A stretch of 64,000 bases of DNA from Gautieria morchelliformis (taxonomy: Eukaryota > Basidiomycota > Agaricomycetes > Gomphales > Gomphaceae). Below, piece after piece: positions 1,287 through 36,938 of the stretch. The DNA lies in assembly GCA_015179125.1 (NCBI GenBank), contig WHVA01000042.1, forward strand, positions 310,001 to 374,000, read 5' to 3'. Positions within the stretch are counted from its first letter, which is position 1. Each line of letters begins with the position of its first letter. A program made the position numbers and the translations under genes. The notes under the pieces were generated by a model that saw only the letters and a program-made list of their open reading frames with translations, did not search any database and had not been told where the DNA came from.

Positions 1287-1296
1287 GGATCAGGGG

Positions 1297-2774: not shown

Positions 2775-2957
2775 GGATCAGGGGATCGGGTCGGCAAAGG
2801 CCGGCGGGCGACCGCGCCGCATGGTCACATGCAAATTATCGACAACCTGGGTGACACCCAAGTTCCCGGTGCTTGGACTGCATCAAAGCGTTCGTATGTG
2901 AAAAACTGAAAAGCGGCGCTTATAGACGTGTGTGGGTCCAGCGACTCACCTTTGACT

Positions 2958-5836
2958 CCCAGTGGAAATCGGCTCGAATTAGGGCTGCGCGTAGCTGTAA
3001 ATATCTGTAAAATAAGCGCTACATATGAGAACCGCCACAAACCGAGAAATGGAACTATAACCGATATTTTGTTCGGCTGAGAGATGCGCAGACTCGCTGT
3101 GAGATGTGTAGCGATGTTCTCCCCGGTAGATAGCAGAATAAAACCGATTTTTTTTGTATTGCCGTATGTGTACAACCGCTGGTACATGTACACAACCGAT
3201 CCCTCCATGCTCTGCGTCCACCTGCACCGCGTGCCCCAGAACCGATTCCCGGTCCTCCACCTGTACCCCGCGCCCCAGCACCGATCCCTCCGCTCTGCAT
3301 CCGCCTGCACCGCGCGCCCCAGCACCGATCCCTCCGCTCTGCATCCGCCTGCACCGCGCGTCCCGGAACCGATCCCTCCGCTCTGCGTCCACCCGTACCA
3401 CGTCCAATGGCTAGAAAGAAAAGACTGAAACAAATGAGAAAGCAACACAATAAAATGAGAGATATACACACCAATGTAATGCGAAGTGAGTGTTTGATGG
3501 GCGATATCTTGCGTGACTTGTTCGTTTTGCTGAGTTCACTGTAGAACTGTACCTAGATGAGACACTGGCATAACAGAATAAGGCTTTTAACTCACCTCCT
3601 TCTCTGCTTCTGAGAGCTTTGTGAATGCTTCTTTGACGCCACCCCTCGTTGACCTGCCCTTCGCTTCCTGATTGGCAAGGCAATAGTTAATAGAGAACAA
3701 GTTCCTGAGCAGCCGAAAATGTCAAATAATCGTTATGCTTAGTAGATGAATGAATACTCCTTACTGCGGTGAATTGGATGTTTTGCTGGGGTAATACGTT
3801 GCATCATCGTTTTCTTTGCTGTATAGTTCGTTTCGGCTTGTAGTGGCGGTTAGCTGACCTTCGTTATCCAGCGAAGCGGCGTGGGAGATGGTGCTGGCAT
3901 GGGAGGGGATTCGAGCCAAGAGTAGGGCATAAGATTTGCTGTGTATATGCGTGTGAGTTGACAGATTCTGGAGAAGTCATATATATCACCACTTACCCCA
4001 ATGTTTGGAGTTGATATTCGACTGCAAGGAAAGCAGTGTTGCGTGATTCCACCAAGAGTTGTTGTGTAGCCATACCGACGATCTGCAGCAAACCGTTAGA
4101 TGAGTCGAGTGGAGCAGGCGCGTTCAGGGACGCGGATCGACACTACAACAAGCGGTGAGGGCTGCAGGAGTCGGACAGCTGCACCCCTGACGTTGTGGGT
4201 GACGTGTCATGTCCTACGCTCGTTATCGACGCCCCCCGCCGCAGCTTCCGACCCCATGTAGGCGATTCCCAGCGCGCAGATCCCCCACGCGCGTTCGTGT
4301 CTACCCGCAGCGCCGCCTACGACTCGGAAAAGAGCGCGAAGCAGTGAGACGGACAGGGAACACATACACGCTCGTGTGACCCATGACGGAACCCAGCGAC
4401 GGACGCGACGTACGCAAGCCGAAGGCACGGTCCGGATGGACGGTGGTTTGGTGCACAGGCCTGCGGCAAGGAACGGAGACACCGTCAGACAAGCGGGAGC
4501 AACAGCAGCGGTGTGGGGCCAAGGAGAGACGAAGCAATCCTCACGGATCAGTGGCACCTCCTTAACCGCCTCGCTTCTTGCCCTCCGCAGTCCGCGCCCA
4601 CGCGTATTCTCATGGCCAATACGGACCGAAAATGCCCACGTCGCACACGCGGAGCTGACGACACGAAGGCGCCGCCAAGGATGCGTGTTGAAGAGGAAGA
4701 CAGGGATAGGGCCGATGTGGTACCGGCCCCGTCTCCCCCGTCTACGCGCCTCAAAGCGCTATGGGGGGATGGACAGCGATGCCCCAGAAGTCGCGCATAG
4801 CAAGCACGTCGCACGCCCATCGCCGACGCCACCACAACCGCCGATCGCGCGTCCAGCCTCCCACTCAGGCCGGAAAAGCGGCAACGACTCAAATGTGCAA
4901 TGGGAGATGTGCATCCACCCCTGGAAGCCCTCCCGATGGGTTCCAGGATTCCCTCAGGCGCTACGCCGGTCGCGCATCGCATCCGCACGCACCCGAGTCC
5001 TCGACGTGCACCACCATGGTCAGAGAGACAGACTCATCGCATGTCCTCCTCCCACGCCGAGACCGAGCGTGCACGCGCCCCCAGCACGTCGAGTCGCACG
5101 TACCGGCGTGAACTGAAACACGGGACCCCTTGGGAGACGTCTTCCAGTCGGTACAGGAACGTGGCCTGGTGAAGAGCAGCTGCCACGTTCAGGACCCGAT
5201 GCGTATCTGCGTAGTCGAGCTACGCTACATCCGGAGCACCCTTCGCGGGTCCTGAACCCTCCCCGCACGCCTCTCCCTTCCTAACTCTTAAGAATAGCGT
5301 GGTAAGTCCAATAAATCGTTAGTCGAGCCGTAGGTCGACTTACGAATAAAACACGCTCGGGTGTGCGTGGAAGGTGGAGAGAGCGAATGTCGAAAAACCT
5401 GAAGAAAAAATAGCGCCGGCCACACGTCGCGTGTCTGTGCGTAGAAAAATAAAAGATTATGTGCGTTTGCAGAAAACGAAAAACGAAAAACTCGCACCCG
5501 AAATCATGGAAATGGAAAATCGTGCGTTGACGTGAACGCGCAGCAACTGGAAATCGGGTTAAAATGGCAGAATGCAGATGTGATTGCACGCGCAGATATG
5601 GGAAATGGAGTAACAACGAGATGCGAGTAGGTCCAGAAAAAGTTGAGCAAAGCTGTCAAGCAGATGTACCGGTATCGGTTGGTGGCGGTGCTGAACCGGA
5701 AGCAACTGAGTTTTGTAAAAAAGTATTTTCATGCATCGGTGCGTCACAGGTACCTGCAGATTTAACCCCGACTTTCTATTTCAATACCGGTATTTACAGC
5801 TACGCGCAGCCCTAATTCGAGCCGATTTCCACTGGG
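2958..5836. mobile_element. DNA transposon with 46-bp perfect TIRs and 7-bp TSD
   Basis: The first 46 bases (2958-3003) are the exact reverse complement of the last 46 (5791-5836). The ends read CCCAGTGG...CCACTGGG. The 7-bp direct repeat TTTGACT flanks both sides (2951-2957, 5837-5843). Such a TSD fits Dada-like or a short Mutator-like insertion; the superfamily cannot be set without a transposase. The 2.8-kb interior shows no transposase motif. It has a minisatellite near the left end and a GC-rich part at 4200-5270 with only overlapping, motif-free ORFs. It is probably non-autonomous, and fairly young given the perfect TIRs. Confidence 0.85.
3196..3410. repeat. Minisatellite, about 44-bp units, 5 copies
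   Basis: Units begin at CCGAT (3196, 3242, 3281, 3325, 3369), so spacing is 46, 39, 44 and 44 bp. Consensus parts are CCGATCCCTCCGCTCTGC and CTGCACCGCGCGCCCCAG. The middle units are nearly identical and the outer ones diverged. The array lies inside the 46-bp-TIR element. Overlapping ORFs here on both strands are by-products of the repeat. Confidence 0.8.
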
Positions 5837-11050: not shown

Positions 11051-12240
11051 TCATGTTCTTTTCCGGGACTTCCTGCCTTGCGATGGAAAGGCTTTTACTA
11101 CCAAGCCTTCAATTGCCTTGTCATCGAGCCTTGGCTTGTCACCGATGCGCCCCTTGCAGGAATCCCTGAGGTGTTTCCACAGAGTATATCTCCGCATGTA
11201 TGTCCTGGCCTGCCCGTGGAGCATGCAGCCCTCGGGGCACAGCACCTTTGTCTCTCCTTTTTCTGGGCCAGCTATGGCCGCCGACCCATCCTCAATCCGT
11301 GTTCCCCTCATGTTCGCAGTTACTCCGGAAGGCGAGTCGGGTACTGGATCCGGCTGCATAGCCCGGGATCCCGCCATCAAACTGGCAACATTTTTTGCTG
11401 CCGGTGGGGTGTCCGTGGTGGTCCACGCGTCCCCCTGGTTGTAATATGAATGTTTAGGTTGGATGGTGGGCCTGTAGCATGCGCCAGGGTTATATCTCTG
11501 TCTGTCGAACACACGCGAAGGCACGCACATGTTTGGCCCACCATCTGGGTAGTCATCGCCTCCGCTATCATAAGAGCAAGAGGTATTTGCCTGATACGCT
11601 GGTGCGCCATTGTCTCGGTACCACGCGTATTCTTGTGGTCGAGACATGCCCAGTGTCTTGAACGCTTATGAACTAGGTCAGATACTTCTGTCCCATTACA
11701 CAAAAAATTCTCTGCCTACCTGAAGTAATCAATGAGAGCGGCGTATGACAGGGTTGTCCAGTCAATCTCCTCGCTGGGAGCCACACTGCATGACATCGAC
11801 CCAAGTTCTTGGGCGACACCCTCAGGAGCGTTGTTGTTTGTGGACCGCTCTTGCGGTAGATGAGGCGGTCCAGTCTCCTGACACCTGATAAACAGGTCAG
11901 ATATGTGCTGTTACACAGAAAAGGTCTTTGCATACCGCAGGTATTCCGCACCATTCCCAGCTGTCTGAGCACTCTGCGGGAAGTCCCGCCTCACAAAGTG
12001 ATGATATTCTGACCTGTGTGTGGGCCAGTGAGTTTTTCTGCGCTCTGACAGAAACACGAAACGTACTGAGAAGGTTGGCCGAGGTTGTTGGGCCGGGCCG
12101 GGAAGGCCGAAGTGTCAGGTGACTACATTTGCCATCCGCTGTTCTGGACATTGCCTCTCCTGATCCATCCGGTGCTACGATACCGCAGCCTGCCAAAACA
12201 TTGTTAGTGGCATACGCCCCAAGCTCGAGCATGAATGCTT
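11051..12240 (-). pseudogene. Broken copy A of the C2HC-finger gene
   Basis: Exon by exon it matches the intact-looking copy B gene at 35820-36938. Two lesions are seen. One extra base near 12124 (GACTACATTT versus GACACATTT in copy B) shifts the frame of the first exon. The acceptor before the last exon reads CTGG where copy B has CTAG. The last exon is still open (11051-11647, 198 aa) and keeps the finger CPEGC...HLRDSCKG. Copy B carries an extra acidic insert before the finger (DLSDEQE). A shortened product from 11647 cannot be excluded. Confidence 0.6.
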
Positions 12241-17275: not shown

Positions 17276-18342
17276 GCCCAGGTGCCCCGTGGCTACTTGA
17301 CATTACTAATCACCGCGTTTTACGGGTTAGTATTTGTAGTCCGAATACGTGCAAATAGCTCAGTTACTGCTGGCGTTCGGGAGTATTCTGAGTTCAACAA
17401 CGGCGGGTAAACTGACGCCTCTAACGCGTGCAGTTTGGATTAGTCTGCGGATGCACAAAGAAATATAATTTTGATTGTCACTCCAAATTATATATATATT
17501 TTATAGTATGAATTCATGAACTCCTCATACTATGGGCCATACACCTATTCAGATCCAAGTTACAGCAAACCTATACATGCAAACATTATACTCACAATAC
17601 AATTCACCGCGTTTTACGGGTTGGTATTTGTAGATCAAGTCCTCATGAACCCATAAGAATGTAGCGTTATGTACACGTAATTGAAGTTATTCTTACATAA
17701 TCTCTGGTTCGAGTATCTCGGCACAGTTGGATGTCTGAATACCCCAGACCGAACCAGAATCCAACAGAACGTCGGTACTTGGGCCAGTGGATCGCATCGA
17801 GAATTCCCCATGAGGTCAGTCCTCTAAATATGTTTAAATCTCTCTAAATTAACCCAGTACTCATTACCGATCGGTCTTCGAGCACCCGGCCATTGCTTCA
17901 AACATGTGTAATCATCCAAAAGTAACACCACGCCAATATGACTAGAGATTGAGTGAGGTAAAATATTCTTAAGTCCTTTCGGATCCCGACGTTACATAAT
18001 ATTAAGAGTACAACGTACGCGTGTACACCTTCCTCTCTCACCCTCGACCACCGGCGTGATATGTCCCAAGCTCGCAAGGCCGCAGCCTCGGAGAGAGCGG
18101 TAAGTAATTCTTATGTGTATTAAGTCTGGTTCGCCTTCTAACTCGCAAATGCATGTTAGAGGCAAGCTGACCAACGACTCGTCCTGTGTACATGCCCGAG
18201 CTGCGAAGAAAGCCCGGAACAGCATGCACCTCCTGGCCGAATGATCACCTTGCGGCATATGGTGTCGATTTTATCAGTACGTGGGTTGGCTGGCTGCAAT
18301 GACCGTAACAGCATGAAGCGTTAAAACACGATTTAGACAGGA

Positions 18343-18771
18343 TCAATGGTTACTTGCCCGGGCGACCAAGTCGCGGATAGAGGGAAGGGAGACCACAGGC
18401 GCAAAGACAGCCACCTCGACTACATTTTCGTGTCCACGCATTTCTGCCTTCGTAGCGCCTGACTCCACGTCTAATATCCGTGCGGTCTGTGAAACTTGAG
18501 ACCTTGATCCGATTGACCATATGTGACTTACATGATCATGAGAACATGTGAGAATCAATTTCCCATCTAAGCTCGACAAGGCGCAACGAATCCAATCTGT
18601 ATGGGAGTTTAAAACTTTGATGCAGTGTCTGCGAGAGGAGGTCATGTGGGGACGCAAGTTTCTAAATCATGCATACGTCGATGCTATGCTCCATATCCTG
18701 ACTGTCTGGTCCCTGCTTGCGCTCACAACACGATCATCGCCCGGCAGAAATCGGGCAGAGGAGACGGAATG
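18343..18771 (-). pseudogene. LIS1/PAC1 WD40 gene fragment inside the inner CMC element
   Basis: The minus strand reads [20 protein letters not shown] and [13 protein letters not shown], then after an intron CIKVLNSHTDWIRCALSSLD, and after a 46-bp GTAAGT...CACAG intron TARILDVESG, AEMRGHENVVEVAVFAP and PSIRDLVA. This is the order and wording of WD40 repeats in fungal LIS1 (dynein regulator, nuclear migration), including the GHENVVEV/FAP signature. Only about two and a half repeats are present and the ends are abrupt, so it is a captured fragment. Retained introns indicate capture from DNA. Confidence 0.85.
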
Positions 18772-18894
18772 TTCACGGATGGGGACAAGAATACATTGTA
18801 TCATCTCTATTGTGCGCAATGCGCAACATGCAGCTGAGGAATAAGTTATGTTTCCCCGATATGAATAATCCCTCTCTGTACGTCCCTGGTCCCT

Positions 18895-21150
18895 CTAATC
18901 CTCCACATGCCCACTCTCATGATCTTCTTCTCCGTCATCAGCTCCATCACCAACTTGTTTCAGAACCTGCAGGATGTTGATCTCTTCGAAGTCGTCGAAA
19001 TTGGGAGGGTTGTCGAACGAAGACCATGACTGTACGTACTCTCTGTGCTCACCTTCCTTCATCTCAAACCACCATGGCTCATTGATCATGAAGGGGTACG
19101 GAGCAGTTAAGGCAGGTTCGTGAGTGCTTCTACCCGACTTCTTGATGCGCTTATACTTGGAACTCTGACGCTCAGCCGAACTGAGGGAGAGATAGTGGAT
19201 ACGGCTGAGCTCGTGTAAGAGGCCGGATGCCTTTATTTCAAATGGTGTTATTCCATGATGATTTAGTCACGGTGCGCACTTACATAATCATTGCGCCATT
19301 CTGGTCTTACCACCTCCAGCAGAGCGAGATCGTCATGAAGCTTGATATCACCAGTGATTCCCAGACGATGCAGGCAGCTTGTCCGCCATGCCGTCATGAA
19401 TTCTTGCCTCTCGTGCGCAGTCTCATGCTTGTTTATTCCTTCTGGCTCACTATCCTCATCCGACATCCAGTCGACATGCAGGACCGCTGTTGGATTGAAG
19501 CCGTAATTGGCTACAAATTGGGGAACTGCAGCAAGTCGCCATCCCATCTTCTGCAGGTCTATATGTGAGACATTCATTTCAGCTCCGAATGTCAGAGTCA
19601 CTCATGTCCTCTCGCCTGCGCCTGTGATGGGAATTTTTTCGGTTAGTTTGTTCCATCTTTTTCTTGAAGCTATCTGTCTGTGCCTGATATTTTGTAACGT
19701 AGCCCCGGAACATTGTCTTAGCGAACTCGTAGAGCAAAGCCCGCTTGAACGGGACGGAAGAGTACAGGTCAAGGACAATGTCAGGTGGATTATCCTGACG
19801 TGAAGGTGAGCTAACACGACAGTGGTACTTGAGCTTATAACTTACATTTATTTCATGCACAGCGAGATCGGCTGTCTTGCCAAGTATGGCGCTATTAGTT
19901 TGGTGGTTTACATCTTCGGTGAAGTTGGGCGTCATTAGTTCCATTCCACTTTCATCTAACCGTGGATCAGCTCCAGGTTCAAGAGGATCTGGCAAAGGAA
20001 TTGGATCGGCAATTTTTTTCTGCGTAACCCGTATTCCAGTGAGGTCCTTGAAGATCCTACGCACGATATTCTTCGGTAATGTTTATTCAATGTAACCAAC
20101 TACGTTGTAAGAGTACTCACCTGCAACTCGCCCTTAAGCTCTTTTTCCTGCTTAGTTAGGTCCTTCAACTTCGTTTTGGCAAGAAGACGACATTTGTCAT
20201 GATTCGATGTTGGCACCACCCCACCGCCCTTCCTGCCACTAACATGCTTGAAAGATCGTCCCCTTTGAGGCAACTGCGATCGCCTGCTTGTGGATCGCAT
20301 TGGAGACCCCCCAGCTTCATCATTCGATTCATCTATGGGGTGCAACCAATTTATAAATACACATGCGTGTATTGGTGTGACGCACCTTCTCCCACTCCAC
20401 CCGGTTTGCGTGCATGTCCCTTCAACGCTGCAGCAAGATCTATTTCCACCTGACCATGAGTACTAGGCATGGCCGGCGAGGTAAGCGGCCGTCATGCTTC
20501 TTTGATGATTCCGGGGCAACTCACTTTACAGGGAGTTCGTTCAAAGGGCCGTCAATACTATATGAGCAACTGTGAGTAATTGACACCAGACTGGGATGTC
20601 GTAGTCATGCTTACCGTCCCATCTTTGTAAGAATGTGATTGCTGTGTGCATCACCATCCCCTATGTCATTCGCAGCGCATGCATTTGGAGAAGCTAGAAA
20701 TGATATTGACGAAGGTGAGTGAGGCCTTACCAGTGCCAGGATCTTACCAGACGTTATAGCATTATTTGCAGTTTTCTTAGCAGTCTTAGTAGAAGTGCTG
20801 CCGACTAAGAGAGGAGATGATAAGTGCGTCGTAATAATTTATTGACATTGGATCATGTGTCGCTTACCAGGTACGCTAGTGGGCTTAGAAGGGATGGGCC
20901 TCGGTCTTACAGTGTCTTCCTCCACCGGGGCGGCACGGGCAATTTTCGTCTGAAAGAGCTTAGAAGGGCTGGTTAGGCTAGAATCACTCTCAGGCTCGGT
21001 CTCAGATTCCTCTCCAGCAAGATGCTCCTTCCAGAATGCCTCACGCGCATCGGCCGTTAGCCTGCACCAGTCGCGGTGCAGTGCGGCACTTTTCAGGGTC
21101 GGCGGGGGCTTGCCGTATGGGTCAGGTGGGAAGGGGTTGCTCTCCTGCAT
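18895..21150 (-). CDS. Transposon-borne ten-exon gene of unknown function (569 aa)
   Basis: Exons (minus): 21150-20868, 20804-20748, 20693-20615, 20569-20525, 20462-20386, 20332-20121, 20019-19846, 19794-19602, 19558-19284, 19209-18895. All nine introns are GT-AG and every phase closes, giving 570 codons with the stop. The start MQESNPFPPDPYGKPPP is Pro-rich. A Ser/Glu-rich acidic part and a basic Lys-rich stretch (KTKLKDLTKQEKELKGELQ) follow. The C-terminal half contains MSDEDSE, EVVRPEWRNDY and a Trp pair (NEPWWFEM) before an acidic tail. I cannot name a family; the SDEDSE...VVRPEW pattern seems familiar from uncharacterised agaricomycete proteins. The outer copy retains the same first exons, so it belongs to the element. 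Confidence 0.75.
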
Positions 21151-21875
21151 GAGCTCTAGCGGTGGTACAGGTGCAGGTAGAGGAATGGTCTCTTGTGGCC
21201 GCGTTTGGATTTTTCTTTTCGATGACGCAGTGCATTTATATTACATGATGACGCTGCGCATGTGTATGTATGTGGGGAATTGGTGACATTTGTACTCTAA
21301 TTAGTACATGCGCTTTCAATGGCATGAGCACATTCTGACTAGATAAAAAGGGCTGTGTCTATGTGTACTAAGGTAAATGGGTTATGAGTTAAATGTTTGT
21401 GTGCATAGGTTTGCTGTAACTTGGATCTGAATAGGTGTATGGCCCATAGGATGAGGAGTTCATGAATTAAAATATATATATAATTTGGAGTGACAATCAA
21501 AATCATATTTCTTTGTGCATCCGCAGACTAATCCAAACTGCACGCGTTAGAGGCGTCAGTTTACCCGCCGTTGTTGAACTCAGAATACCCCTGAACGCCC
21601 ACAGTAACTCAGCTATTTGCACATATTCGGACTACAAATACTAACCCGTAAAACGCGGTGATTGCCACAGTACACATATACACAACCATTTTCATCATAG
21701 TCAGAATGTGCTCCTGCTATTGAAAGCTCATGTACTAATTAGAGTACAAATTCTCGCATACATACACACGCAATATAATATAAACACGCTGCGTCATCCA
21801 AAAAAAAGAAAAACACGTCCACAAGAAATTAATCCTTCACCTTGCACTGCACCTGCACCACCGCCACTAGAGCTC

Positions 21876-22172
21876 ATGCAGGCGAGCCATCCCTTCCCAC
21901 CCGACCCATACGGGCAGCCGCCACCATCCCTGAAGAGCTCTGAAACCGAGTCTGAGAGTAGTTGCAACCTAATCAGCTCTAAGCTTCTGAGAACTTCCAA
22001 ATAAAGTACCCCACGCCGCCCCGGTGGAGGAAGAAACCACGAGTACGAAGCCCGTCCCTTCTAAGCCCACTAGTGTATCTGGTAAGTGACATATGATCCA
22101 ATGAACTTATTATGACGCACTTGTTATCTCCTCTCTTAGTCGGCTTCGGCTAAGACCGCTAAGAGCTCAAAA
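21876..22172 (+). pseudogene. Broken 5' end of the same transposon gene in the outer element
   Basis: Starts MQASHPFPPDPYGQPPP, like MQESNPFPPDPYGKPPP in the inner copy, then jumps from LKS to ETESES because about 30 codons are deleted. It reaches a stop at 22004. Downstream the matching splice donor (GTAAGTGACATATGATCC) and the second exon start (TCGGCTTCGGCTAAGAC) are still recognisable, but later exons are gone. It shows that the outer element once carried the gene in the opposite orientation to the inner one. Confidence 0.8.
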
Positions 22173-22317
22173 TCAGCCGATAATAAGTCCCAACGTAGGC
22201 CCTAATTTAATTGAAATACACTTACAGACTGGCTTTATAAATGGACGCCCCGAGATCAGAGTCATGGACTGAATGCTGTGTAACAACACACATATAGCCA
22301 ACAGACCGAGTCCGAGA

Positions 22318-22640
22318 AACACGATGACACGGCACTTACACGGGCTCAAGTACCACCTCGCGCACGGCGTGTGCTGCTTTGCGCCGCACGGCCCTGTGGT
22401 GGAAGCACTGAGGAGGGCAAGTGGGAGCGCGTGGAAAGGTCGTGGATGTGTGCAGTGGACGGGGACGTCGATGGGGGAGAGCAGGAGGGGCGGGGAGGAG
22501 AAGAAAGGCTGCGAGAGGCGGTATAAGATTTTAACAGACTGCGTGAGTGGAACAGGGGAAGATGCAGACTCAATAGACTCAGGTGCAGCAGGTGCAGGAC
22601 CCTCCACATCAGAGGCCCGGTGGGAACCGCAACTGCTTCC
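22318..22640 (+). pseudogene. Possible captured zinc-finger gene fragment in the outer element
   Basis: The frame reads GLKYHLAHGVCCFAP, which resembles the second half of the C2H2 fingers of SFP1-like fungal transcription factors (GLKYH..HG.C.FAP). A Ser/Gly/Glu-rich stretch without motifs follows, in a markedly GC-rich segment (about 22350-22920) unlike the AT-rich transposon ends. The first cysteine pair of the finger is absent. Tentative. Confidence 0.3.
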
Positions 22641-23411
22641 CGCACAAGCAGCGGCAGCACGCGGCCCCTGTGCTGTCCACGCTGTCGCCGTGGGCACATG
22701 CACCCGAACCCGGACACGGTGGCGCACACGCACACAGCCCCACACATGCACGCACCCGCGCCCTTCCCTGCGCCGTCGCCGCTCTCGCCATTCCCCCGCG
22801 CACTGTGGTTCGTGGACGTGTGGTGCGTGCGCGCTGCGGGGCACAAAAAGCGAAAAGCAGACATGTCCATGACCGTGATGTGTCTGCCCAGTGCTACTGG
22901 CCCACACGGGGCGAACGCATCACGGTCATGGTGGTGGTGGTGAGAGAGGAAGAACGAGTGTACTCTAATTACATAAGGTCGGGATCCGAAAGGACTTCAG
23001 AGAATACTAGTACTTAGCTTACTGTATTAAAACTTTGTTCTATATGTTGCAGGCATATAAGCCCTTGGAAGGGCATGGTGTTGCTTTAGGATGAATATAT
23101 GTGCTCGCAGCAATGTTATGTTATTATGGGGTGTTCGAAGACCGATCTGTGATAAGTGCTTGGCTAATTTAGAGATATTTAGAGATATTTAGACGACTGA
23201 CCTCGTTGGGGATTCTCGATGCGATCCACTGGCCCAAGTACCGACGTTCAGTCGGATTCTGGTTCGGTCTGGGGTATTCAGACGTTCAACTGTGCTGACA
23301 TACTCAAACCAGAGACTATACAAGAATACCTTCAATTATGTGTAGATAATGCTACATTCTTATGGGTTCATGAGGACTTGATCTACAAATACTAACCCAT
23401 AAAACGCGGTG

Positions 23412-23639: not shown

Positions 23640-23944
23640 TGTTGGGGTTATCGGGGATAAGCTAGAACACAGTCAGGGTGGAGGGGAGATCGGTCAGGGT
23701 GTTGTCTCATGTCAGTAGCCTCGGGCATATGCCCGAGGCCGTATATAGTGCAGAACCATAGTTAGCGGCACCTCAGTGAACTACCTCATTCACTGAGGTG
23801 CGTATCCTTTTCTATCGGCATCTAGATATAAAGCCACTCACTCTGTTGATAGCTTCTATATCTAGGTAGAGTACTAATACATACTCAGTGAACTACCTCG
23901 TTCACTGAGCTTCTATATCTAGACTACTGCGCATAACCTCCACA
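23640..23944 (+). repeat. Left LTR of copia 2
   Basis: TGTTGGGG...CCTCCACA. It contains a TATA-like TATATAG (23743-23749) and two hairpins with the AGTGAA/TTCACT core (23769-23800, 23884-23909). The change CCTCATTC relative to the right LTR is a CpG loss. Confidence 0.95.
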
Positions 23945-23948
23945 GGTT

Positions 23949-26900
23949 ATGGGCCCCGCAGAGCCCACCATGCCATCCTCCACCTCGAAGTCGTTCGCCA
24001 TCCCAAAGCTGGCTCGGGATGGCACGAATTGGGTAACGTGGAAAAGTCAGACACTAGCGACGACTCGAGGTGCCAGACGGCACCTAGAGGGGACCGATAG
24101 GATCCCCCCGACGCTCCCCACGTACCCAACTGGCCACACCTTGACGGAGAAGGAGGAGGAGGAATTAGAAGAGCTGGAAAAACGCTGGGACGACTATCAC
24201 CAGCGCAAGGTGACTATCAAGGTGCAGATCTTCACCACGGTGCCCGATAGCGTCCTCATAGAGGTACGGAACCTGGACACCGCGAAGGAGGTCTGGGACG
24301 CCGTGTGCACGAAGCACGAGGCGAAGGCCCTCACTGTCAAGGTCGACATGCGCCGACGCATGTACGAAATGAAATGTGAGGACGACTCGAATGTCCGCAC
24401 TCACCTAGAGTCGCTCATGAAAATGCATGAACAACTGGCAAGCATGAATGCGGCACTCACCGACGACAATCTAGTGACCATCATCCTCGGTTCGCTCCCG
24501 AAGTCCTATCGCCCACTGATAAACGCCATCACGATGTCTGCAACGCACACGAAGGCAAAATTGGAACCCGATCAGGTGGTGGAAACGCTGATTGACGAGT
24601 TTGAATGACTTACCATCGAAGAACATCAGCTCAAGGCCAGCGAGAACGCACTGGTAGCAGTGAAGGGCCACGGAAAACCACAGCCACGCAGCGGAACCTC
24701 CAGCAGCGCTAGGACTGACTTAGAATGTTGGAACTGCGGTAAAAAGGGGCATAAGAAGGCAGATTGCCGTTCTAAGGCCAAGAAGAAGGATAAAAAAGAG
24801 GGTGACACTGACAAGAAAGGCACCGACTCGGCAAACACAGCGACGGGAGGCGAGGAATTCGCCTTCACGACGACGTTCGCTGGGACCGCACTCGCACTAG
24901 GAACGAGTCCGATAACGGGCCACGAGGTCGACGTCTACGACTCAGGAGCGTCAGGGCACATGTCACCAGACCGGCACCGGTTAGTTACCTTCAAAGAGAT
25001 TGCGCCAGGCGCGATCAACGCCGTGGACAAGACGATATTCCAGGCTATCGGGATAGGGAACATGAGGATAGGCATCCCCAACGGGAAGACAACGATGCAC
25101 GTTACCTTGTGGGACGTGTTGTATTGCCCAGATCTGGCATTCACGTTGATATCCCTCACACACTGCGACACTGCCGGTTACTCGGTCCTCCTGAAGGACC
25201 GACAGTGCCTGATCCGAGACTCGAGAGGGGCGCTGATGGGGCAGATCCCACTCTCGAACGGACTCTACAAGGTAGAGCATAAGTCAGTGGCTGCGCCGGC
25301 AAATACAATAAGGAAAACGCTCACCATCGACGAGCTGCACCGGCGCATGGGCCATATATCCCCGCTGATCGCCCGGAAACTCGTCCGGGACGGTACCATA
25401 ACAGGGCTAGACTTGGATGCATCAAGTCAGCCGAGTTTTTGTAAGGCATGCGCACAAGCTAAGCCTACGCGCAAGCCGGTCCTGCAGGCGAGGGATGGAC
25501 CGCGAGCCTCCACATTCGGTGAAAAAGTCCACTCCAATGTCTGGGGACCGGCAAACCCCCAGAGCTACGATGGCAAGGAATATTTTGTCAGTTTCACTGA
25601 TGACCACAATAGATGGACCTACCTCGTCCCGATGGCACGGAAAGCCAAGGCGTTCGGCTGCTACAAACAATACGAGGCGTGGGTCGAGACCCAGCATGGC
25701 GTGAAGGTAAAACGCCTGCAAACGGATCGCGGCGGTGAATATCTTTCGCAGGAATTCACTACGCACCTTAAGTCGAAGGGAACGGTATGGAGTCTCACCG
25801 TACATGATACGCCAGAGGAGAACGGGGTGTCGGAGCATCTGAATAGAACACTGTTAGAGCACGCGCGAGCTATGATCCTGACAGTGGACTTACCCAAGTT
25901 CCTGTGGACCGAGTCAGTGCAGCACGCGGTGTGGTTAAAAAATCATACCTCGACGCGCGCGCTCGACGGCAAAACGCCATACGAGCTGGTACATGGCACA
26001 AAACCCGATCTCACGGACCTACCTGAGTGGGGCACAACAGTATTTGTGCTGAGGGAACATTCCAGCAAGCTGGATGCAAAGTCGGACGAGGGCAGGTGGA
26101 TGGGGTACAGCAACGAGAGTAAAGGGCACAGGGTTTACTGGCCCGGAAAATGCCGCATCACGGTCGAACATAACGTCACGTTCGACACCCCTATCCTTGT
26201 GACTCCTGCTGACGCACTGGCTGAGGGGGAGTCTGACCCTCAGGGCAGCCAGGGCGCCAGCAGCAGCATCCATCAGGCCCAAAGACCACCGCCGCTACCA
26301 CCAGGACTCCCAGAACAGACCGCGCGGATCGACCCGCTCGAAGGGTTCGAGAGGACGGACACACCGCCAGACCCGCCGCAGGGCAGGGGCCAGCGCACGT
26401 GAAAGCCATCGGCGTACGTGCGAGGGATCGCGGACGGCGCAGGCAGCAGTACGGGCCGCGCAAACGCGCCCGCCTACCCGCGTGGATTGCCCTTACCCAC
26501 AGACGGCACGGCCTTGGCTGTTCTGGCAGAGCTGGACAGTGGCATCGCCGCCGAGCCCGAGGGGGAGACGTGCTGCCCCTTCGAGTACTCGATGGCAGCA
26601 GCGGCACGCGACGCAGGGGATGACCCGGTCAGCGTGACTGACGCGCGTTCCCGCGACGACTGGCCGCTATGGGATGCCTCGATCAAGCGCGAGCTGCGCC
26701 AGCACGCAGATCTAGGTACTTGGGACTTGGTGGAACCACCGGATGGTGCGAGCATCGTGGGGAGCAAGCTTGTCTTCCACTACAAGCGCGACGCGAGCGG
26801 TCAGGTCGTAGCACACAAGACCAGACTCATCACGCAAGGGTTCTGACAGACCGAAGGGATTGACTACAACGAGACATTTTCCCCCACCGCCAAACTCTCC

Positions 26901-28178
26901 GCCATCCGTATTATAGCCGCCATAGCAGTCAGGAACGACTGGGAGCTGGAGCAAACCGATATCGACGGCGCGTACCTCAACGCGCCGATCACGGAAACGG
27001 TTTACATGCGTCAGCCCAAGGGCTATGAGGTCGCTGGCAGGGAAAACCACGTCTGCCGTCTTAACTGCGCGATCTACGGATAAAAGCAGTCGGGGAGGGA
27101 ATGGTACGACATGTTGTGCGGAATTATGTACAGGTTCGGTTTCACGCGATGCGAGGCGGAACACGCTGTGTTCCACCAATACGCTGACCAGGATGCGCTC
27201 ATTGTCGCCGTTGATGTCGACGACCTCACCATGGCAGGCAACTCGAGGGCCACGATCCGCAGATTCAAGGACGAGCTGCGCACCGTCCTCAAGATTAAGG
27301 ACATGGGGGATCTACATTGGTTATTGGGGATCGAAGTCAAACGGGACCGTGAGCTGCGAACTCTCTCCCTCTCACAGCGCACTTACATCGAGAGGATTCT
27401 CGAGTGATTCAACCTACAGGATGCCAACCCCTTGACCACGCCACTCGACCCCCATCATAAGCTGTCCCTATCGCAATCCCCGTCCACACCCTGGCAACAC
27501 GACGACATGCGCAACGCCCCCTACAGGGAGGCCATCGGTTCCCTAATGTACGCGGCGCTGGGCACGCGCCCCGACATATCCTTCCCCATCTCCTTCCTCG
27601 CGCAGTTCATGCAGAATCCGGGGAGGGCACATTGGGAGGCGGTAAAAAGGGTCTTTCGTTACCTGAAGGGAACGAAAGACACGTGCCTCATCATTGGAGG
27701 GACGGGACAGGGCCTAGAGGCGTTTTCAGACGCAGATTGGGCCTCACAGGAACACAGACACTCTATTTCTGGTTACATATTCACGATCGACGGAGGAGCG
27801 GTCTCCTGGAGCTCGAAGAAGCACCCTATCATCGCACTTTCGACGACGGAGGCTGAGTACATCGCGGCAACGCACGCTGCGAAGGAGGCTCTCTGGATTA
27901 GGACCTTTATCGCGGAAATCGCGCGACCACTCAAGGAGCCCGCCACGATTCACTTAGACAATATCTCTGCTATTTCTATCACGAAGAATGACGCCTACCA
28001 CCCTCGTACCAAACATATTGATATTCGCTACCACTTCATACGGGACGCCGTTCGCAGGAAGCTCATACAGGTCGACTACGTCCCTACCGCTGACATGGCG
28101 GCGGACATGTTCACCAAACCCCTAGCCCGGCACAAGGTGGAGTACCTGAACTCGCTGGTAGGGATGCATTCCACTTAA
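23949..28178 (+). pseudogene. copia 2 gag-pol polyprotein with five in-frame stops
   Basis: One frame of 1410 codons with no frameshift, interrupted at 24606 (TGA), 26400 (TGA), 26844 (TGA), 27081 (TAA) and 27405 (TGA). Order: Gag (KSFAIPKLARDG...), zinc knuckle CWNCGKKGHKKADC, protease DSGASGHMSPDR, integrase zinc region (HRRMGH...CKACAQAK) and catalytic core with LQTDRGGEYLS, reverse transcriptase (TAKLS, VAVDVDDL), RNase H (SDADWAS, EAEYIAATHAAKEALW, ADMFTKPL). All four TGA codons sit where CGA (Arg) is expected, which suggests CpG deamination. The ATG lies 4 bases after the LTR, inside the primer-binding site. Confidence 0.95.
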
Positions 28179-28185
28179 GGGGGAG

Positions 28186-28490
28186 TGTTGGGGTTATCGG
28201 GGATAAGCTAGAACGCAGTCAGGGTGGAGGGGAGATCAGTCAGGGTGTTGTCTCATGTCAGTAGCCTCGGGCATATGCCCGAGGCCATATATAGTGCAGA
28301 ACCATAGTTAGCGGCACCTCAGTGAACTACCTCGTTCACTGAGGTGCGTATCCTTTTCTATCGGCATCTAGATATAAAGCCACTCACTCTGTTGATAGCT
28401 TCTATATCTAGGTAGAGTACTAATACATACTCAGTGAACTACCTCGTTCACTGAGCTTCTATATCTAGACTACTGCGCATAACCTCCACA
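28186..28490 (+). repeat. Right LTR of copia 2
   Basis: Identical to the left LTR except at four CpG/CpA positions. It is preceded by AAGGGGGAG (polypurine tract, 28177-28185), and the 5-bp repeat TTTCG follows at 28491-28495. Confidence 0.95.
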
Positions 28491-29616: not shown

Positions 29617-32600
29617 TCAAGCGATGACCTCGCCATTCAATCTTCGGAGGCCTAACTTGTCGAACAGGTAGCTGAAGATCGGACGGCTCAGAGCTTTGGT
29701 AAGTATGTCCGCGGAGTTTTCTCTTGTTGGAACATGCGTAAAGCTGACCTCAGCGCACGTGACACGTTCACGGATGAAATGGTGAGCAACATCGATGTGC
29801 TTCATCCTGGCATGGAAAGTGGGATCCTTGGTCAGGATAATCACGCCCATATTGTCACATAAAATGTTAGTGGCCCCTTTTTGTTCAAAACCGACGAGTT
29901 TCAGTAACGATCTTAGCCATAGTGCTTCTTTGGTTCCGTATGAGCACGACATGTATTCGGCTTCGACACTGGATGTCGCTACGGTGGGTTGTTTCTTCGA
30001 GCTCCACGAGATTGGACCACCACCTAAGGAGTATAGGTAGCCGGCAGTAGATCTACGGTCATCCCGATCCGAAGCCCAGTCCGAGTCCACCCACCCAGAT
30101 AGGAGAACATTCTTCCCACCTAGGACGAGCTCCACATCACGCGTCGTGTATAGGTAAGTGATGACTCTCTGGGCTTGCGTCCAATGTATGGGACCAGGGT
30201 TGACACTGAACTGACTCAGGTGGGAAACCGCGAACGATATGTCCGGCCACGTGCCCATCCCCACGTACATCATGGAACCAATAGCGGTGAGGTAGGGAAT
30301 TTTCTGCATGCCCCTCACCTCATCCTCACTTTTAGGGCATAGGTCTTTGGACAGCACGACGGTGTGGTCGAGGGGGGTATACTTGGCATATGCATTCTGT
30401 AAGTTCAACCGTTTCGCGATCGTCTCGATGTAGGCACGCTGAGACAGGGAGATCGTCCTCGCAGCCCTGTCCCTTTTTATAGCCATGCTGAGGAGGTGAT
30501 GAACCTCGCCAAGGTCCACTAGATCAAAGATCGCACCGACATCGGCCTTAACCCTCACCATTTCCGCCGTGGTACTCGCCGCCACACAAATGTCATCAAC
30601 ATGGATCGCGAGAATGGAGGTCCCATCTGCGGTGGTGCGTGTGTACACGCAGTGGTCAGCAGCGACTCTGGTAAAGCCCATCTCTTCCACCAGGGCTTTG
30701 TTAAGCCTAGCGTTCCACAACCGCGGTGACTGTACCAGACCGTAGAGAGTCTTCCTCAGCCGACAAACGTGAGTCTCCTTTCCTTTCACAACGCATCCTT
30801 CCAGTTGCTCCATATACACTGCATCGTCTAGCTCTCCATGCAAAAAGGCGGTTTTGATGTCCATCTGGTGGATCTCCCAATCCATTGCGGCACCAATGTG
30901 CAGTATTGCACGTACGGACTCCATCCTTGTAACAGGAGCGAAGGTGTCCGTGTAGTCGATACCGGCCCTTTGGACAAAACCTTTCGCCACCACACGGGAC
31001 TTAAACCTCTTAGGAGTGCCGACGACATCCTTCTTCCTCAGGAACACCCATTTGGATGGGATGACACGACGACCGTCAGGGACTTCAGTCCGTGGGACAA
31101 GATCCCACACACCGTGTTTCGACAGTGAGTTCATCTCCTCGTTCATACTCGACTCCCACTGCAGGGCATCCGATCTCTTTAGGATTTCTCGATATGTCTT
31201 GGGGTCATCCACTTCACCGACACAACACCATTCATCCTCGGACTCAGCCACAAAGATGCCCACTTCCTCGCTATCTAACGGAGCACCCCCACGAGTTTGC
31301 GCTTTGATTTCTCTCATCTCCCTGAGCGTTCTGTCCATTACTGACTCATATGACAGACCTCGCATCGCGGCGCCCGCGGCAGACACCTTCGGTACACGGG
31401 TGGAGTGTCTCAGTAGTACCTCAGTGGGAGCATCGGTCGGTACACCGGTGTTGTCAGTACTGCGGGCAGGATCACTGACTATAGGGCAGGGCACGGGGGA
31501 CAGATCCTCATCACGTTCAGGGTCAGGCTCCGGAATCGCGTCCGCATTCGCGATGACACCAGGGTGCAGCTTTCTGGGTCGGGAGTCCTGGCTTTCTGCG
31601 AAGACTACATTACGTGTGACATGGATCTTGCCAGAATGTCGCTCCAGACAACGGTAAGCCTTCGAAGTCTCCGAGTAACCAACCAGAACGCATTCAACAG
31701 ACCAATTATAGATCTTTGGGTTTTCACCGGCGATGTGTACCCATGCCCGGCACCCGAGCTCGCGCAGATGTGAGATATCAGGTCTTACACCGAACCACAT
31801 CTCATACGGCGTCAGTCCTCTAAGGGTCCTGGTATGTGTCCTGTTCTTCAGGTATGCAGCAGCCCTCACAGACTCAGCCCATAGGCTTGGAGGTAACTTC
31901 ACATCAGATCTGATAGCACGGGCACGGTTCATCACGGTGCGGTGACACCTCTCCGCACGGCCATTCTCTGCCGAGGTGTAAGGGGCAGTTGTCTGGTGAC
32001 GGATGCCTTCACGCTTCAGGTACGACTCGAATTCATCGGAGGTGTATTCACCCCCATTATCGGTGCGAAAGGTAAGTACCTTCTCATTGCTCTCCCTCTC
32101 AACTAGCGCAAGCCAATCCTTGAAGACAGCCGTAGCGTCCGATTTCTTCTTAAGCGGGAATAGCCAGGACATGCTTGTGTAGTCATCAATAAAGTTTAGA
32201 ACATATCTGTCCCCAGTTGCGCTGCCAACGTCCTCAGGCCCAGTAATGTCCGAGAAGACCTTCTCAAGCTGCCTCTTCGCCCGCACCCCCTTCCTGAGTT
32301 TCGGAACAGGCGATTTTGTCTGTTTGCCGACGACACAGTGTTCACAAATGGGGGGGAGGGTGGACAGATCAACGGGCATACCTTCCACCATACCGGACTT
32401 GGCCATTTTGATAATCGAAGAGTAGTTCAAATGGCCGAGTCGTCTGTGCCAGGTCTCAAGGTCGGGAGCAGCACGCGCAATATTGGCTGATTCAGCAATA
32501 GCCTTGGGATCACCAGATATGTAATAGAGGTCAGTACCAATTTTAGCACCTTCTGCCATAATTTTGCCATTTCGGGTTTTGATAGCAACGCGGCCGTCAC

Positions 32601-33852
32601 CGAAAGCAGCAAACAGGCCATCATCGTCTAGGCACACGATCGATATCAAGCGCAGCGTAGCCTCTGGGACGTAAAGGGCATTGTGGAGCGTCAATTTCCT
32701 CCCCTTTCCACAGCGCACACGAATGGTGCCGCTACCGATCGCAGCTATATATTGACCACCAACACCACGTATCCTTCCGTCGATGGGGACAAAGTCTGAG
32801 AAGTCGGACCGTATGGGAGATACGTGTGCGGTACAGCCAGAGTCAGCGCACCAGGGTGAGAGCTCAGTGACGAGGTGAGCACTATCATAAGGGAATTTGT
32901 TGACATTCTGGATATGCAGGGGATCGGGAGTGGAATCAGTCGGATCCTCTATGGCAGCACAGGAGTAATAGCCATCATTCAGACAGGATTCATCAGCGAG
33001 AGCACTGTTGACATCGACAGCGAGGTGTGCAGTCGCAGAATCGGAATCGGATGAGTCAGCGGCCACGTTCGATTTCTCAACCTTCTTCTTCTTGCCACCA
33101 TCGGACTTCTTTTTCTGAGCCTCCTTGAACCAGTCTGGAGCTTGGTCTTCCGCGCCTCCACCCTTCTTCCAGCAGCGCTCAAAGGGGTGATTCTTCCCAC
33201 AGTTCGTGCATTTCACCCTGTCCCGACGATCCCCCTTAGCAACATTCGCTTTCTCGAGGTGAGTCTTTTCACGCGTGCCCAGGTTTATCGTCTCGATAAC
33301 ATCCTTCTTGCTGGGGGGGGTCCTCGCGCTCGAGAAGGAAGCCAGGAGGTGTTTTCGAACCCAATCAAGCTGAGTGTTCTGTAGCGCGTTCATCAAGACA
33401 AGGATCGTGAATTCAGCCTGAGACGGCGCTCTGCCACCTTCATAGAGGTCAGAAATGAAATCCTCAATCTCCGAGATGGTTTGGGGAGTGCTGTTGAGGT
33501 CAGAGAACTTGGCAGACATGGCAGAGTTGATAGCATTGATCTTCGTGATCATTCCACCTTGGTGAGCTTCGGCTTTCAGTCTGTCCCAAGCTTCTTTTGC
33601 AGTCAGGGTGGGATCGAGGAGGCGGCGAAGGGCATTATCAACGTGTTTTCCAAGCGTGCCGACAATACGAACATTGATCTGTCTCCACTCAGACAGTTTC
33701 TTTGCATCGGTTGGCACATCGACGGTTCCATCGATGAAGCCCATGAAGCCGGATTCCATGAACGCAAACTCCATGTCCCTCGACCACTGCAGCCAGGTAC
33801 CCTCTTTCAGCTTCTCGACGTCCTTGATTCTGACATTGTACTCAAGGACCAT
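29617..33852 (-). CDS. copia 3 Gag-Pol polyprotein (1411 aa)
   Basis: One uninterrupted frame. The chosen start is MVLEYNVRIKD at 33852; the frame stays open upstream through the primer-binding site into the LTR (to an ATG at 34098), but the earlier part lacks Gag features. Rough residues: Gag 1-210; knuckle CTNCGKNHPFERC 215-227 (spacing CX2CX3HX4C, one shorter than usual); protease DSGC 337-340; GAG-pre-integrase WHRRLGHL...CEHC 468-506; integrase D535, D598, E629; reverse transcriptase 935-1180 with HVDD at 1084-1087; RNase H about 1255-1390 ending ADILTKAL. All catalytic residues are present. It supplies the capsid, protease, integrase and reverse transcriptase for copy-and-paste transposition. 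Confidence 0.95.
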   Translation of the reverse strand: MVLEYNVRIKDVEKLKEGTWLQWSRDMEFAFMESGFMGFIDGTVDVPTDAKKLSEWRQINVRIVGTLGKHVDNALRRLLDPTLTAKEAWDRLKAEAHQGGMITKINAINSAMSAKFSDLNSTPQTISEIEDFISDLYEGGRAPSQAEFTILVLMNALQNTQLDWVRKHLLASFSSARTPPSKKDVIETINLGTREKTHLEKANVAKGDRRDRVKCTNCGKNHPFERCWKKGGGAEDQAPDWFKEAQKKKSDGGKKKKVEKSNVAADSSDSDSATAHLAVDVNSALADESCLNDGYYSCAAIEDPTDSTPDPLHIQNVNKFPYDSAHLVTELSPWCADSGCTAHVSPIRSDFSDFVPIDGRIRGVGGQYIAAIGSGTIRVRCGKGRKLTLHNALYVPEATLRLISIVCLDDDGLFAAFGDGRVAIKTRNGKIMAEGAKIGTDLYYISGDPKAIAESANIARAAPDLETWHRRLGHLNYSSIIKMAKSGMVEGMPVDLSTLPPICEHCVVGKQTKSPVPKLRKGVRAKRQLEKVFSDITGPEDVGSATGDRYVLNFIDDYTSMSWLFPLKKKSDATAVFKDWLALVERESNEKVLTFRTDNGGEYTSDEFESYLKREGIRHQTTAPYTSAENGRAERCHRTVMNRARAIRSDVKLPPSLWAESVRAAAYLKNRTHTRTLRGLTPYEMWFGVRPDISHLRELGCRAWVHIAGENPKIYNWSVECVLVGYSETSKAYRCLERHSGKIHVTRNVVFAESQDSRPRKLHPGVIANADAIPEPDPERDEDLSPVPCPIVSDPARSTDNTGVPTDAPTEVLLRHSTRVPKVSAAGAAMRGLSYESVMDRTLREMREIKAQTRGGAPLDSEEVGIFVAESEDEWCCVGEVDDPKTYREILKRSDALQWESSMNEEMNSLSKHGVWDLVPRTEVPDGRRVIPSKWVFLRKKDVVGTPKRFKSRVVAKGFVQRAGIDYTDTFAPVTRMESVRAILHIGAAMDWEIHQMDIKTAFLHGELDDAVYMEQLEGCVVKGKETHVCRLRKTLYGLVQSPRLWNARLNKALVEEMGFTRVAADHCVYTRTTADGTSILAIHVDDICVAASTTAEMVRVKADVGAIFDLVDLGEVHHLLSMAIKRDRAARTISLSQRAYIETIAKRLNLQNAYAKYTPLDHTVVLSKDLCPKSEDEVRGMQKIPYLTAIGSMMYVGMGTWPDISFAVSHLSQFSVNPGPIHWTQAQRVITYLYTTRDVELVLGGKNVLLSGWVDSDWASDRDDRRSTAGYLYSLGGGPISWSSKKQPTVATSSVEAEYMSCSYGTKEALWLRSLLKLVGFEQKGATNILCDNMGVIILTKDPTFHARMKHIDVAHHFIRERVTCAEVSFTHVPTRENSADILTKALSRPIFSYLFDKLGLRRLNGEVIA

Positions 33853-34008
33853 CGTGATGGCACGAGGGTGGTAGCGTGGGGGATTAGAGTGGATATGTGC
33901 GTTCAAAAAAAAAGGTCTCGATACGAATCGAAGAAGCGATATGTAGGCAAGTGTGATCTTCCAAGCGTAGTAGTGATTGACTAAAGCGAGGACGGAAGCC
34001 CCATAACC

Positions 34009-34219
34009 TATTGGAATCTGTACCGACTGTACCGACTGGTTAGATCTAGGTACAGGTGTATCAATACATATGAAAAAGCGGCAACTAGGTGAGATCACAT
34101 TACCTCAGTCTCACAGATGATTGTGATAGACTGAGGAAAGGATGTGAACTCCGACACGCGTCTCAAGTACCGCGCCAGCGGAGTTTGGTACGCGTATAGG
34201 TCACGCTTGAACTCCAACA
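34009..34219 (-). repeat. 5' LTR of copia 3
   Basis: Promoter-side LTR on the minus strand, TGTTGGAG...CCAATA. The primer-binding-like GGTTATGGGGC follows (minus strand, 34008-33998). The gag-pol frame is open inside it. Confidence 0.95.
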
Positions 34220-35819: not shown

Positions 35820-36938
35820 TCATGTCCTTCTCCGGTACTTGCTGCCTGTCAATGGAAAGGCTTTTAATACCAAGGCATCGATTGCCTTGTTGTCGAGCCT
35901 TGGCTTGTCACCGATGCGCCCCTTGCAGGACTCCATGAGATGTTTCCGAAGAGTATCTCTCCGGACGTATGTCCTGGGATACCCGTTGCGCATGCAGCCC
36001 TCGGGGCACAGCACCTCCTGTTCGTCTGAAAGGTCATGCTCAGGCTTTGACTTGCCCTTTTTTTGTGTAGGAGGTATGTCCGCCGACCCATCCTCAAGCC
36101 GTGTTCGCCTCGTGTTCGCGGTTACTCTGGAAGGCGAGTCGGGTACTGGATCCGGCTGCATAGCCCGTGATCCCGCCATCAAACTGGCAACATTTTTTGC
36201 TGCCGGTGGGGTGGCCGTGGTGGTCCACGCGTCCCCCTGGTTGTAATAATAGTGTTCCGTTTCGATGGTGGGCCTGTAGCATGCGTCTGGGTTATATCTC
36301 TGTCTGTCGAATACACGCGAAGGCACGTACATGTTTGGCCCACCATCTGGGCACGCCTTACCTCCGCTATCATAAGAGCAAGAGATGTTTCCGTGATACG
36401 CTGGTGCGCCAAGAGACATATCCCTAGTCTCTTGAACGCTTATGAACTAGGTCAGATACTTATGTCCTATTACACAAAAAAACCTTTGCCTACCTGAAAT
36501 ATTCTAAGAATTCCGCATATGGCAGGGACGTCCAGTCTATCTCCCCGCTGGGAGCCACACTGCATGACATCGGCCCAAGTTCTTGGGCGACACCCTCAGG
36601 AGCGCTGTTTGTGGACGACTCTTGCGGTAAATAAGGCGGTCCAGTCTCCTGACACCTGATAAACAGGTCAGATGTGTGCTGTTACACAGAAAACGTCTTT
36701 GCATACCGCAGGTATTCCGCACCATTCCCAGCTTTCTGAGCACTCTGCGGAAAGTCCCGCCTCACAAAGTGATGATATTCTGACCTGTGTGGGGGCCAGT
36801 GAGTTTTTCTGCGCTCTGACAGAAACACGAAACGTACTGAGGAGGTTGGCCGAGGTTGTTGGTCCGGGCCGGGAAGGCCGAAGTGTCAGGTGACACATTT
36901 GCCATCCGCTGTTCTGGACATTGCCTCTCCTGATCCAT
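35820..36938 (-). CDS. C2HC-finger-like hypothetical protein, copy B (about 314 aa)
   Basis: Exons (minus): 36938-36838, 36784-36707, 36655-36494, 36423-35820, with introns of 53, 51 and 70 bp, all GT-AG. The phases close to 315 codons with the stop. The start at MDQERQCPEQRMANVS is chosen because the frame is open there; an upstream ATG at 36992 or 5' exons are possible. A conserved block SEYHHFVRRDFPQS is followed by EIDWTSLPYAEFLEYFR. The C-terminal part has CPEGC...RRDTLRKHLMESCKGR, a C-x3-C...H-x4-C arrangement like a degenerate C2H2 finger, and a basic tail. It may bind nucleic acid; no named family. Copy A (11051-12240) has broken splice and frame. Confidence 0.6.

Follow-up and report, generated by a model that had tools for sequence, protein, structure and literature searches.

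What is a gene of ten exons doing inside a transposon in which no transposase can be recognized? This question is raised by positions 18895 to 21150 of the stretch of DNA analyzed here (the window), 64,000 nucleotides of the basidiomycete Gautieria morchelliformis that form part of contig C471 of a 122-Mb genome. The answer we favor is that the gene probably serves as a helper, the second gene in a fungal two-gene lineage of CACTA/EnSpm transposons, and that it would act in the manner of TnpA in maize. For brevity we refer to it below as the helper.

With splice sites set by hand, the helper lies on the minus strand, begins with an ATG at 21150 and reaches its stop codon at 18895 after ten exons (21150-20868, 20804-20748, 20693-20615, 20569-20525, 20462-20386, 20332-20121, 20070-19846, 19794-19602, 19558-19284 and 19230-18895), which remain in phase across nine GT...AG introns and encode 593 amino acids. 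An earlier description made from the letters alone (the sequence-only reading) gave the same location, ten exons and nine in-phase GT-AG introns, all of which we retain, but a product of 569 residues, which we do not. Product length varies with the splice sites picked, and the figure of 569 must reflect other choices. Three sites in our model are weak, namely the acceptors CCGAAG and ATAAAG and the donor GTGACT. When the hand-set sites were checked against copies of the gene, the CCGAAG acceptor and that of the third intron were found not to be AG in the copies on C347, C866 and C417 (L011-L013), and a donor present in the window model was lost in L012 and L013. Restricting acceptors to C/T-AG with both ends fixed gave a best chain of 607 amino acids that strays from the conserved frame over a portion of the final exons, and restricting donors further to GTA/GTG yielded no chain between the same fixed ends (21150 and 18895). 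Automatic splice models were dropped because they preferred out-of-frame chains.

The two weak acceptors and the weak donor might suggest that the helper is only a set of chance open frames in dead repeat DNA, and the condition of its copies could be taken the same way: in-frame stops number two to six in 6 of the 10 aligned copies, and large parts are missing from the other four. However, under either of two splice grammars, 100 third-order Markov sequences yielded no chain as long as 569 amino acids and no score equal to that of the real sequence, in a test that scores the best free chain and not the hand-set model. This agrees with the earlier judgment that such a gene is hard to obtain by chance. 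The two-grammar test is the like-for-like version of a first attempt whose donor rule was too strict, in which the real sequence gave 305 amino acids versus at most 270 in 60 controls, and in which several other tiles of the window outscored the helper stretch.

Codon constraint also speaks against chance. Values of dN/dS are 0.40-0.43 relative to five copies that are 81-97% identical in exons, with bootstrap upper bounds of 0.55-0.57 for four of them and 0.72 for the nearest. These five constitute the main set, and the signal is less clear in the remaining five of the ten, which are short or near-identical (0.28 in L018, 0.60 in L014, 0.67 in L016, 0.68 in L015 and about 1.06 in L023). Exons of L010 and L034 and two exons of L021 carry stop codons and were excluded from two of the alignments. 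At the nucleotide level, helper exons are no more conserved than introns (0.88 versus 0.89 in L010). Finally, homologues can be followed exon by exon at roughly 30-60% identity, which would not be expected of chance frames. Judged by these comparisons, the helper is a real gene that was formerly constrained as coding sequence, and its close copies are mostly dead. The chance reading is refuted as far as sequence allows, and we assign it almost no probability.

The helper is carried by an internally deleted CACTA-type transposon of 4056 bp at 17605..21660, with ends of the form CACCGCGTTTTA...GTG (CACCGCGTTTTACGGGTT...), terminal inverted repeats (TIRs) of ~30 bp, and ATT duplications at 17602-17604 and 21661-21663. 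Its type A end (21375..21660, minus strand) lies beside the start of the helper, and its type B end (17605..17934, plus strand) lies beside the start of the transposase gene. This transposon is inserted in one of the ends of a second, non-autonomous element of ~2 kb, which belongs to a group of ~2-kb copies that lack transposase. The left part of the outer element, a type A end, occupies 17311..17604 on the plus strand and is preceded by AAT at 17308-17310. The remainder occupies 21664..23411, also on the plus strand, and includes a type B end at 23129-23411 with an AAT flank. Damaged pieces of the first helper exons are present in this remainder, as the sequence-only reading had noticed for the outer copy. 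That reading had not seen that the inner element extends from 17605 to 21660 and that the arm at 17311-17604 belongs to the outer one, and the long arms that it saw are pieces of two nested copies. We rejected TIRs of ~290 bp for this reason; the two ends of a single element share only ~30 bp.

Exact 3-bp duplications flank 8 of 10 short elements in a check of flanks and 5 of 7 end pairs in another check, both window elements included, and a further short element with an exact 3-bp duplication is present in L060. L025 contains a second nest of two related elements (740-5078 and 2645-4675), the outer flanked by TCT duplications and the inner by mismatched ones.

The window has further features. 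About 230 bp to the right of the outer element begins a retrotransposon at 23640-28485 that was judged Copia-type by eye; its 300-bp direct terminal repeats are 99% identical, its frame is interrupted after ~219 codons, and it is a young insertion. At 29617-34098, on the minus strand, a single open frame of 1493 codons has features of a Copia gag-pol by eye. A NACHT-like frame (by eye) at 46064-49695, also on the minus strand, is followed by WD40-like repeats, which look recently homogenized because their 129-bp units (13.9 copies) match at 89%. Two closely similar minus-strand frames (SCSYDSGG...PDGGPNM..PSRVFDRQRYNP.ACYRPT) lie ~25 kb apart at 11051-11647 and 35820-36419.

On the plus strand of the inner element, at 18061..18255, there is an apparent transposase start, consisting of exon 1 and part of exon 2 (MSQARKAAASERA / RQADQRLVLCTCPSCEESPEQHAPPGRMITLR), after which the frame is broken. 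This interval, whose reading as a transposase N terminus had escaped notice, is 96% identical to the sequence immediately preceding the transposase frames of L028. What the window keeps reads as only the first ~45 codons of the transposase, and of the body exons used as queries none was found in the window. An internal deletion has its junction at 18257..18258, where the transposase body sits in relatives, and it is because this deletion removed the body that no transposase is seen in the window copy. The elements on C130 and C892 are less deleted at the junction, each retaining ~660 bp extra, and the internal parts that are missing differ from copy to copy. Internally deleted derivatives exist in plant CACTA/En-Spm as well. 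Comparison with the relatives shows the window copy to be a deletion derivative in which the second gene was kept and the transposase was reduced to apparent N-terminal exons.

The transposase itself was located by reading open frames downstream of the helper in longer copies. In the relatives on C229, C608 and C1048, the strand that does not carry the helper has open frames directed toward it. These frames contain YELARLPYFNPITMTIIDPMHDLLIG and a CTRC motif, and relatives add NHH-x3-H and GERLNK. In L030 the motifs CDHPA, PCTRC, NHH-x3-H and GERLNK occur in the CMCT order of D, C(2)C, H(3-4)H and E, with catalytic residues assigned by eye from the motif published in PMC12730594. Both HH-x3-H and GERLNK are invariant in all five transposase lineages. 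Profile matches are below curated cut-offs, both for Transposase_21 (PF02992) on one transposase exon in two diverged lineages (E values of 0.0015 and 0.0019) and for DUF4218 on another exon in 4 of 5 lineages (best E value of 0.0093); on a third exon, the unrelated EGF_Sp38_C family reached 0.0024. None of these transposase loci is listed in a scan of the genome with the PF02992 profile. The description of a transposon without a recognizable transposase holds for the window copy, which has no body exons, but not for its longer relatives, in which the opposite strand codes for a CACTA-type transposase. C229 and C1048 carry ~1.27 kb of extra sequence where the transposase gene starts (L027 1050-2323 and L028 2885-4159), and in neither did the outermost 246 bases of the B end find a match.

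Elements that span both genes and retain both ends can be delineated. The far side was examined for five two-gene loci (C427, C91, C571, C342 and C209), and four of these, on four contigs, are elements of 7.6-8.1 kb whose two ends are both present and flanked by a matching 3-bp duplication, where "two-gene" denotes the span of both genes and not the integrity of their frames. They are C427:13060-20753 (ATG duplication, 4 mismatches in the outer 20 bases of the ends), C91:201289-209113 (TAT, 3 mismatches), C571:164268-172335 (ATT, 5 mismatches) and C342:48023-55627 (ACT, ends CACTGC, 7 mismatches in 20); no complete end pair was found at C209. The ends of C427, C91 and C571 are of the CACCGCGTTTT type, as are those of both window elements, and C415 shares the CACTGC ends of C342. 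The two-gene relatives show CAC...GTG ends, 3-bp duplications, a helper that starts near one end and a DDE-type transposase that starts near the other, with the two genes tail-to-tail.

The ends and the duplications are features by which CACTA/EnSpm elements are recognized. The TIRs begin with CAC and end with GTG, the literal CACTA pentamer being replaced by CACCG or CACTG, and the 3-bp target-site duplications extend to C427, C91, C571, C342 and C415. By its ends, its duplications and the apparent motifs of its transposase, the element has the characters of CACTA/EnSpm. Subterminal repeat arrays were not above shuffled sequence in 7 of 8 ends under two word settings. The sole exception is the A end of L030 (290-609), where CCAAATATA occurs five times, a count reached in none of 40 shuffles, and where it is possibly a candidate binding site. 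Two other classes were considered and set aside. Plavaka elements have ends TGT..ACA or CATCA..TGATG versus CACCG/CACTG.. here, and for KDZ (Zisupton) elements 8-bp duplications are expected whereas 3-bp duplications are found. Among 135 matches listed in a scan with PF18759, the Plavaka transposase profile, for which 123 of 277 candidates were scored, none overlaps the paired transposase loci, and the nearest listed, on C348, is ~5 kb from the helper gene.

The relationship between the two genes is most apparent across the whole genome. Using the C-terminal part of the helper product and two transposase exons as queries, we obtained 36 and 34 loci, respectively, after clustering. Helper relatives are spread across the genome, with identities to the window protein as low as about 30%. 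A transposase locus lies within 8 kb of 21 of the 36 helper loci, where random placement predicts 0.16, and in every one of the 21 the genes are tail-to-tail, convergent on opposite strands. Two more pairs are found on C174, with a second query, and on C229, which carries both genes with a helper that lacks most C-terminal exons. All loci come from one genome and several look like duplicates or alternative contigs: C91/C861 and C229/C1048 are near-duplicates, C165/C631 appear so by match pattern, and C347/C866/C417 have the 8 bases beyond the end in common. Independent pairs therefore number fewer than 21. The earlier proposal that the gene moves with a transposon family is well supported by these tail-to-tail pairs.

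The 15 helper loci that had no transposase within 8 kb in this first count could be viewed as remnants of a domesticated host gene that transposons later acquired, and at C150 and C391 inspection revealed neither an element end nor a partner transposase. However, C174 is paired on the second query, and four of the 15 (C415, C892, C130:192k and the copy in the window) are deleted elements that retain their two ends, each flanked by matching duplications. The helper loci on C347, C866 and C417 adjoin an element end and that on C227 adjoins part of one; all of the 15 but C130:36k, C182:287k, C560:286k and C596 were inspected. Moreover, C391 and C415 match at 98% over only 1.1 kb, as copies of a mobile sequence would. 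We consider an origin as a domesticated gene very improbable. The sequence-only reading held that it would be wrong if homologues were ordinary host genes never lying between TIRs, which is not the pattern seen in this genome, with its paired and deleted elements.

C415:15636-18966 parallels the window copy in being a helper-only element with both ends, flanked by AGT duplications. This locus and C391:119399-120176 have a diverged helper with long open frames and no transposase detected, and they perhaps represent a helper-only mobile lineage. A host-gene reading of the two is unsupported, given the short extent of their match and the two ends of C415.

Another possibility is that the helper is cargo, or a captured host gene, neutral for transposition. 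Such a gene might well lack a recognized domain, any functional role for the helper is itself read from sequence, and 13 of 34 transposase loci (C229 included) have no helper match. However, neutral cargo would not be expected to hold a constant tail-to-tail position in 21 of 21 pairs, including those whose helpers are only about 30% identical to the window protein, or to show dN/dS of about 0.4. Furthermore, helper and transposase protein distances are correlated across 11 loci (r=0.91, 0 of 5000 permutations), and remain so without near-duplicates (r=0.89, 8 loci, 0 of 5000) and among the 6 most diverged loci (r=0.80, 30 of 5000). To the extent that these alignments can reveal it, they show a second gene constrained as coding sequence that diverged in step with the transposase. 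Since the two co-diverge, mere cargo is unlikely, and we regard the cargo reading as improbable. Of the two roles suggested earlier, accessory mobility protein or cargo, the first is the one that fits.

The protein offers few direct clues to its function. Its product matched no Pfam family and had no relatives among solved structures. AlphaFold models of two C-terminal fragments were too poor to use (pTM of 0.29 and 0.27), and the first fragment (L032) probably includes an in-frame intron; from such models the helper is predicted to be mostly helical. The last 43 residues form an acidic tail with a net charge of -13, and there are two basic stretches, at net +8 and +10 per 50 residues. We infer a role in transposition. 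Under the reading we favor, the helper would act in trans as a partner of the transposase, binding element DNA through the two basic stretches of an otherwise acidic, probably helical protein, and would assist assembly, regulation or de-silencing of transposition, the part that TnpA plays alongside TnpD in maize Spm. A copy such as the one in the window would depend for its mobilization on the transposase that complete relatives encode, and may itself provide the helper, in its original or in an altered form.

The main rival is that the helper counters host silencing and takes no part in cutting or joining, working as VANC does in the VANDAL elements of Arabidopsis or as has been suggested for TET/JBP proteins. 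Its position as a separate gene on the opposite strand, tail-to-tail with the transposase, is consistent with this function. Precedents come from VANC proteins (PMC10398659, in the part drawn on) and from fungal transposons carrying TET/JBP genes that are proposed to allow escape from silencing (PMC12730594, likewise). TnpA itself reactivates a methylated promoter, according to the portion of PMC1636069 used here, so that this rival overlaps with a TnpA-like function and the two could coexist. On the other hand, the helper lacks any recognized domain, and co-divergence with the transposase suits a physical partner at least equally well. A purely anti-silencing role is thus a minority possibility, though one to be taken seriously.

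A bolder extension of the helper reading, which we advance tentatively, is that the protein represents a family absent from Pfam, with an origin separate from that of plant TnpA, on which a single lineage of fungal CACTA transposases depends as its obligate partner and with which it co-evolves. Helper-only copies, such as those in the window and on C415, would then persist as trans-acting regulators and not as passive wrecks.

Catalogues of fungal DNA transposons usually rely on the transposase. The helper is tied closely enough to a CACTA transposase lineage to mark elements that are missed by Pfam. Hypothetical proteins of this kind are common in agaricomycetes; should the pairing extend to other fungi, a class of such proteins would be reassigned from host gene sets to the mobilome. 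Whether movement of fungal CACTA elements requires two proteins, as in maize Spm, also becomes testable. The literature searched, with most subscription papers and Repbase reports outside the search, contained no description of the helper protein.

Several known systems share parts of this arrangement. Fungal EnSpm families (Kojima 2025, PMC12730594) are defined by the same CAC...GTG ends and 3-bp duplications and have CMCT-clade transposases with C(2)C and H(3-4)H motifs, but the accessory gene there is a TET/JBP dioxygenase, and the sections consulted do not mention a helper-like protein. CNIRT6, a CACTA element of Cryptococcus neoformans (PMC12810828), resembles our elements in its CACTG terminal repeats and DDE transposase, whereas the available extract describes one transposase gene of ~6.9 kb and mentions no second gene. 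SmTRC1 and the fungal TRC elements (PMC1636069) are similar in that a Transposase_21 element yields an extra product proposed as a TnpA analogue. However, in the excerpted account the extra SmTRC1 proteins are splice products, and its authors report that no other animal or fungal element proved similar.

As far as the portions cited go, two reading frames are present in plant CACTA elements, of which one encodes the transposase and the other a product of unknown function (PMC8978399), and TnpA and TnpD are both essential in maize Spm (PMC1636069). Unlike TnpA of maize Spm, a splice form of the transposase transcript, the helper is a separate gene on the opposite strand with its own start (21 of 21 pairs). 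The ends of plant CACTA elements carry subterminal repeats, whereas none were detected as arrays in the fungal elements here. Because subterminal arrays are lacking and the genes lie on opposite strands, a simple TnpA analogue is disfavored, and the suggested likeness to maize TnpA is one of role, not drawn from sequence comparison with TnpA. Nevertheless, the fungal elements resemble plant CACTA/En-Spm (PMC8978399 and PMC1636069, in the same portions) in having CAC...GTG ends, 3-bp duplications, and a transposase accompanied by a second protein.
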